DNA from: a bacterium
Lineage (GTDB): Bacteria > Electryoneota > RPQS01
DNA: 64,000 nucleotides
Reading direction: 5' to 3'
NCBI GenBank assembly: GCA_013360195.1
Contig: JABWCQ010000002.1
Span: 188,932 to 252,931, forward strand
Shown: positions 3,152 through 3,174 of the stretch, piece after piece
How positions within the stretch are numbered: the stretch's first letter is position 1
Layout: the number at the start of each line of letters is the position of its first letter
The notes under the pieces: model-generated
Databases searched by the model: none
Told to the model about the DNA's origin: nothing
Seen by the model: only the letters and a program-made list of their open reading frames with translations
Program-made: the position numbers and the translations under genes

Positions 3152-3174
<23 letters not shown>

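Follow-up and report, generated by a model that had tools for sequence, protein, structure and literature searches.

Protein genes ending inside tRNA genes: a merR–tRNA-Pro(GGG) overlap, its recurrence in relatives and its probable origin by stop-codon drift

Introduction

In mitochondria, stop codons are completed by polyadenylation, and in E. coli the stop codon of secG lies before the tRNA gene leuU, with which it reportedly forms an mRNA–tRNA co-transcript cut by RNase P, as Mohanty and Kushner are said to have described in 2008. PMC9674279 describes how tRNA cutting defines the 3' ends of mitochondrial mRNAs, some of which may end up lacking a standard stop. For arfA, PMC10107115 describes an RNase III cut within the open reading frame that yields a nonstop mRNA and places the gene under tmRNA control. 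In the annotation of an endosymbiont genome, Prokka was altered to permit genes overlapping tRNAs (PMC7969357), a change that suggests that gene–tRNA overlaps occur in bacteria. Among open-licence papers, we found no survey of bacterial genes ending inside tRNAs, no description of recurrent bacterial gene ends at tRNA TAGs and no paper joining tRNA-Pro, MerR and ihfA; the matches listed held nothing on MerR beside tRNA-Pro.

Here, we analyze two such gene ends in an Electryoneota bacterium, both within one 64,000-nucleotide stretch of DNA that we call the window, and compare them with the corresponding junctions in related genomes.

Results

A MerR-type regulator gene (merR) and the protein-L-isoaspartate O-methyltransferase gene pcm each end inside the tRNA-Pro gene that follows (Table 1), and both are real genes, with Pfam domains and homologues in the family. 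The merR frame closes with seven codons (SGRGAAR) and the TAG, the first of these codons beginning 1 base before the tRNA and the others lying inside it. Its product, presumably of the COG0789 type, has a MerR HTH domain, and tRNA-Pro(GGG) is the next feature downstream. We express gene ends as offsets, counted from tRNA base 1 to the base at which the stop codon begins (0 being base 1 and negative values lying upstream). On the far side of tRNA-Pro(GGG), the mechanically called start (GTG, 3134) of an SRAP gene (Pfam; 2418-3134, minus strand) falls inside the tRNA; we take an ATG near 3050 (MCNAYG) to be the likely start and Cys2 the catalytic residue.

Table 1. Coordinates of the features discussed (window positions unless a contig is given)
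Feature	Position	Strand	Details
MerR-type regulator gene (merR)	3538..3152	-	128 codons from TTG, ATG directly after TTG; Pfam MerR_1, E 4e-22
Stop TAG of merR	3154..3152	-	U20-A21-G22 of tRNA-Pro(GGG), frame 2, offset +20
tRNA-Pro(GGG)	3174..3098	-	ARAGORN; Infernal 60.5 bits; CCA encoded at 3' end
merR/tRNA-Pro(GGG) overlap	3152-3174	-	23 bases; ORF and tRNA calls
Hairpin and T run, terminator-like	3058..3097	-	Directly 3' of tRNA-Pro(GGG); fold -17.5 kcal/mol, z -3.8; absent from pattern-scan listing
pcm	1128..436	-	Pfam PCMT, E 2e-66; tail MSGRSAVR; ends inside tRNA-Pro(CGG)
tRNA-Pro(CGG)	458..382	-	ARAGORN
pcm/tRNA-Pro(CGG) overlap	436-458	-	Same TAG position as in merR (+20)
Hairpin and T run, terminator-like	340..381	-	3' of tRNA-Pro(CGG); -22 kcal/mol, z -4.1; also listed by pattern scan
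Promoter-like site TTGACA-17-TATATT, 11/12	1189..1217	-	Before pcm; the region has 5 sites of this kind against 2.7 expected by chance
Small membrane-like protein, tRNA-Val(TAC) neighbour	G000:C15:67269-67586		106 codons, stop to stop

At both Pro junctions, gene and tRNA share a strand, leave no room for a terminator between them and are followed by a hairpin with a T run, a layout that suggests that each gene and its tRNA would be carried on one RNA. The tRNA occupies the place where a 3' UTR would be. As the 5' end of tRNA-Pro(GGG) is 20 bases upstream of the merR TAG, the expected cut would precede the stop. Inside merR there is a 10/12 promoter-like site (3366-3337), near chance level, and the genome encodes a tmRNA (157.6 bits).

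The position at which both frames stop follows from the tRNAs themselves. Across the 45 tRNAs of the genome, TAG at U8-A9-G10 (+7) is the earliest stop in its reading frame in 27 and TAG at U20-A21-G22 (+20) in 15, and 41 have a stop in some frame within their first 25 bases. tRNA-Pro(CGG) has both the +7 and the +20 stop, and in tRNA-Pro(GGG) frame 2 alone contains a stop, the +20 TAG; because no other frame has a stop, a frame entering it can terminate inside only at +20. Every homology-supported overlap that we found uses one of these two early stops. The TAG position in the merR and pcm overlaps is therefore unsurprising, being a tRNA-intrinsic triplet, and we rejected the shared geometry as a sign of common cause. 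The first-pass annotation had also counted the two overlaps as independent occurrences. The order MerR–tRNA-Pro(GGG)–...–pcm–tRNA-Pro(CGG) is kept on one contig in all ten family genomes that yielded pcm, so the two overlaps, 2.7 kb apart, are not independent of context.

That the 23-base merR overlap is real and repeated at the same TAG in pcm, as that annotation had stated, was borne out, and relatives show that it is not an isolated accident. Within the family, merR overlaps tRNA-Pro(GGG) at +20 in 8/11 genomes (G000, which is the genome of the window, G001, G003, G004, G006, G007, G009 and G010), and pcm overlaps tRNA-Pro(CGG) in 3/10 (G000, G001 and G005), a homologue search having found no pcm in G006. 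This recurrence is real beyond the shared context. Relatives in which a normal stop precedes the tRNA, named in the first-pass annotation as what would refute its reading, also exist: merR stops at -9 in G002, -7 in G005 and -5 in G008, and pcm stops at -10 to -30 in the remaining seven genomes. The gap between gene and tRNA at these junctions is at most about 30 bases in the family, and loss of the stop in a merR frame of the G005 type would let it run straight to +20. In G005, pcm overlaps and merR does not, whereas G003, G004, G007, G009 and G010 show the reverse; the overlap states thus flip separately at the two loci, and such independent changes between relatives and loci fit weak selection.

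In the sister family, merR of one genome (G012) ends in a 5' remnant of tRNA-Pro, made up of the first 24 bases and differing at 1 position from that genome's own tRNA, and the intact tRNA-Pro lies about 740 bases beyond, with a cassette between. The other (G011) has merR with a plain stop, and the cassette is present there also. Given the G012 remnant, the merR overlap may predate the family. The cassette consists of two genes between merR and tRNA-Pro(GGG) in both sister-family genomes (L042:1814-2553, the locus that keeps the remnant, and L043:1809-2476), and we take it to resemble an MNT/HepT pair. A three-protein tree, which leaves out the pcm of G008, gave support of 96-100 within the clade of G000, G001, G006 and G005 and 16-74 on most deeper branches elsewhere, and placed family f2 inside f1 at support 16; it resolves too little to count overlap gains and losses or to date the merR overlap.

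The neighbourhood of merR and tRNA-Pro(GGG) is ancient and far older than the overlap. Using a 14-sequence alignment, we gathered at least 80 named MerR loci from many phyla. Among the 80 loci listed, 61 have a tRNA-Pro within 400 bases after merR, GGG in every case, one has a tRNA-Met and 18 have no tRNA, contig ends counted in. The single overlap in those 61 (L092) belongs to the family; the other offsets range from -7 to -358. Of 39 genomes of the phylum, 38 have a MerR match, and we examined the 25 lying outside the order: tRNA-Pro follows merR in 21 (20 GGG, 1 CGG), none of these 21 pairs overlaps (offsets -6 to -358), and the remaining four have no tRNA in the stretch examined after merR.

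We then extended the comparison, as had been proposed, to all tRNAs of this genome and of relatives. In four family genomes with 181 tRNAs (45 each in G000, G001 and G002 and 46 in G008, with one further Infernal match in G002 below the cut-off), nine tRNAs contain the end of a homology-supported gene. Four of these are among the 45 of G000 (Pro-GGG, Pro-CGG, Val-CAC and Val-TAC), three in G001 (both Pro and Val-TAC) and one each in G002 and G008 (Val-TAC in both); all other homology-supported frames in the four genomes stop before the tRNA. We rejected a proline-specific mechanism, as first envisaged, on account of the valine junctions, where Val-TAC is overlapped at a different TAG (+7). Of the four junctions with an overlap, three occur in relatives as tight but non-overlapping pairs, as judged from supported pairs among the 181 tRNAs. 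The HldE-like gene before tRNA-Val(CAC), for example, overlaps in G000 only (1/4) and stops at -8 in G001, -7 in G002 and -53 in G008.

Support here means a homologue upstream of the tRNA in another of the four genomes, a filter that would miss real genes confined to a single genome. For want of such a homologue, we dropped G000 ORFs over tRNA-Val(GAC) (102 codons) and tRNA-Thr(GGT) (118 codons) and a 109-codon ORF touching tRNA-Lys(TTT), off frame to the gene that stops at -51; further overlapping frames, in G001, G002 and G008, were lost to this filter as well. It passed a few shadow-like frames (for example, 89 codons with a stop at -9 beside merR in G000), none of which overlaps a tRNA.

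The small membrane-like protein encoded before tRNA-Val(TAC) has matches in 37 of the 39 phylum genomes. We examined 30 of these 37 loci (L320-L349); tRNA-Val(TAC) is next downstream in 29, and the gene overlaps it at +7 in 12, of which eight come from this family (8/10, G004 with a changed tail) and four from the distant family f7 (4/6). The overlap thus recurs in two separate families. In a genome of f7 (G017), we examined 46 tRNAs (Infernal listed 49) and the only accepted gene overlap was Val-TAC, with merR stopping at -6; on inspection by eye, we took a frame of 123 codons lying over tRNA-Leu(TAA) to be read-through of an adjacent tRNA and left it out. Further conserved gene–tRNA neighbours precede tRNA-Leu(GAG), tRNA-Lys(TTT) and tRNA-Gln(TTG) (G000:C22:26198, G000:C1:160651 and G000:C4:112949; L386 and L198 in G017), presumably secG-like, purA-like and spoVG-like genes, respectively. 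In G017, the purA-like gene (-9) and the spoVG-like gene (-3) nearly overlap their tRNAs.

Finally, we compared substitutions between G000 and G001. The body of pcm carries 87 synonymous and 39 nonsynonymous changes in 214 codons and its 12-codon tail before the tRNA carries 4 and 1; the body of merR carries 48 and 32 in 114 codons and its 5-codon tail 0 and 4. The pattern in the pcm tail resembles that of translated sequence and the merR tail gives no such sign, both tails being too short for proof.

Discussion

We consider it likely that these overlaps arise by drift or loss of stop codons in tight gene–tRNA–terminator units, with the tRNA's own TAG as a backstop, and that they are mostly harmless. 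A native stop that lay a few bases short of the tRNA in such a transcription unit would be lost, the reading frame would continue to the first in-frame stop, the TAG of the tRNA's conserved sequence, and over time the stop position would wander to and fro across the start of the tRNA, staying close to it on either side. It would be free to do so because lengthening the C-terminus by a few residues costs little while the frame soon meets an early tRNA stop. Two observations weigh against drift. The overlap is kept in merR (8/11) and in the Val-TAC neighbour (8/10 in this family, 4/6 in the distant one), which could mean selection, and the pcm tail, with 4 synonymous and 1 nonsynonymous change in 12 codons, evolves as though the protein made use of the extension. 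As for the suggestion in the first-pass annotation that native stops had been replaced, stops do appear to have drifted or been lost, but not through tRNA insertion.

A rival reading is that tRNA maturation and protein synthesis are in programmed conflict: RNase P, in freeing the tRNA 5' end, would shorten the mRNA by its final codons together with the stop, full-length protein would be made only if translation preceded processing, and later rounds would end as nonstop complexes tagged by tmRNA, so that tRNA maturation would come to bear on MerR, on pcm and on the genes beside the Val tRNAs. By geometry the cut would lie upstream of the stop, a tmRNA gene is present, the Val-TAC overlap recurs in two families, and a processed nonstop mRNA is known as a means of control for arfA (PMC10107115). 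The conservation in relatives that a function would predict differs between junctions (MerR 8/11, pcm 3/10, HldE-like 1/4, Val-TAC neighbour 12/30 loci examined). Close relatives do without the overlap, however, and separate tRNA promoters are possible given the site inside merR; we regard this reading as unlikely. The same low probability attaches to its general form for this bacterial group, in which every transcript would set tRNA maturation against the finishing of the upstream protein, RNase P would turn merR, pcm and Val-linked mRNAs nonstop, tmRNA would set protein levels, and tRNAs would act as built-in expression brakes, arising repeatedly wherever a stop drifts into them.

At the other extreme, the extension might exist on paper only, most ribosomes never reaching the tRNA TAG or translation there being irrelevant, and the functional protein ending at the old C-terminus. 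The variable MerR residues beside the tRNA and the end of the pcm Pfam domain at residue 210 of 230 would suit such a view. Against it, the synonymous bias of the pcm tail speaks for translation and overlapping genomes have no in-frame stop before the TAG, so some rescue or termination must happen at the tRNA TAG; we find this account very improbable. Least credible of all is the original proposal, in which insertion or duplication placed copies of tRNA-Pro at the ends of genes and these brought new stops with them. Two Pro isoacceptors do lie near each other, and the remnant beside an intact tRNA in G012 indicates that tRNA ends can be duplicated. MerR–tRNA-Pro(GGG) adjacency nevertheless occurs in many phyla without overlap, including 21/25 other genomes of the phylum with none overlapping, and a neighbourhood this old (61/80 loci listed, mostly from other phyla) precedes the overlap; at the merR locus we reject insertion on the ground of old synteny.

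Annotation pipelines that forbid CDS–tRNA overlap would drop such genes or cut them short. The overlap also predicts that tRNA excision removes the stop-bearing end of the message, since an RNase P cut at tRNA base 1 would take the final codons and the stop off the mRNA. Should RNase P indeed act in this way, the loci offer natural tests of how bacteria handle mRNAs that lose their stop to tRNA processing.

The closest described arrangement, secG-leuU, likewise has a protein gene directly before a tRNA, followed by a Rho-independent-type terminator, but the stop lies before the tRNA there and inside it here. In mitochondrial tRNA punctuation, polyadenylation makes the stops, whereas the genes described here have a full TAG downstream of the expected cut. 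The likeness to arfA is that cutting the RNA ahead of its stop would yield a nonstop message; arfA differs in that an RNase III hairpin is involved and control is proven, while here the enzyme would presumably be RNase P and control is conjectural. The overlaps accommodated in the endosymbiont belong to a reduced genome of 292 kb, in contrast to the 3.2 Mb assembly considered here.
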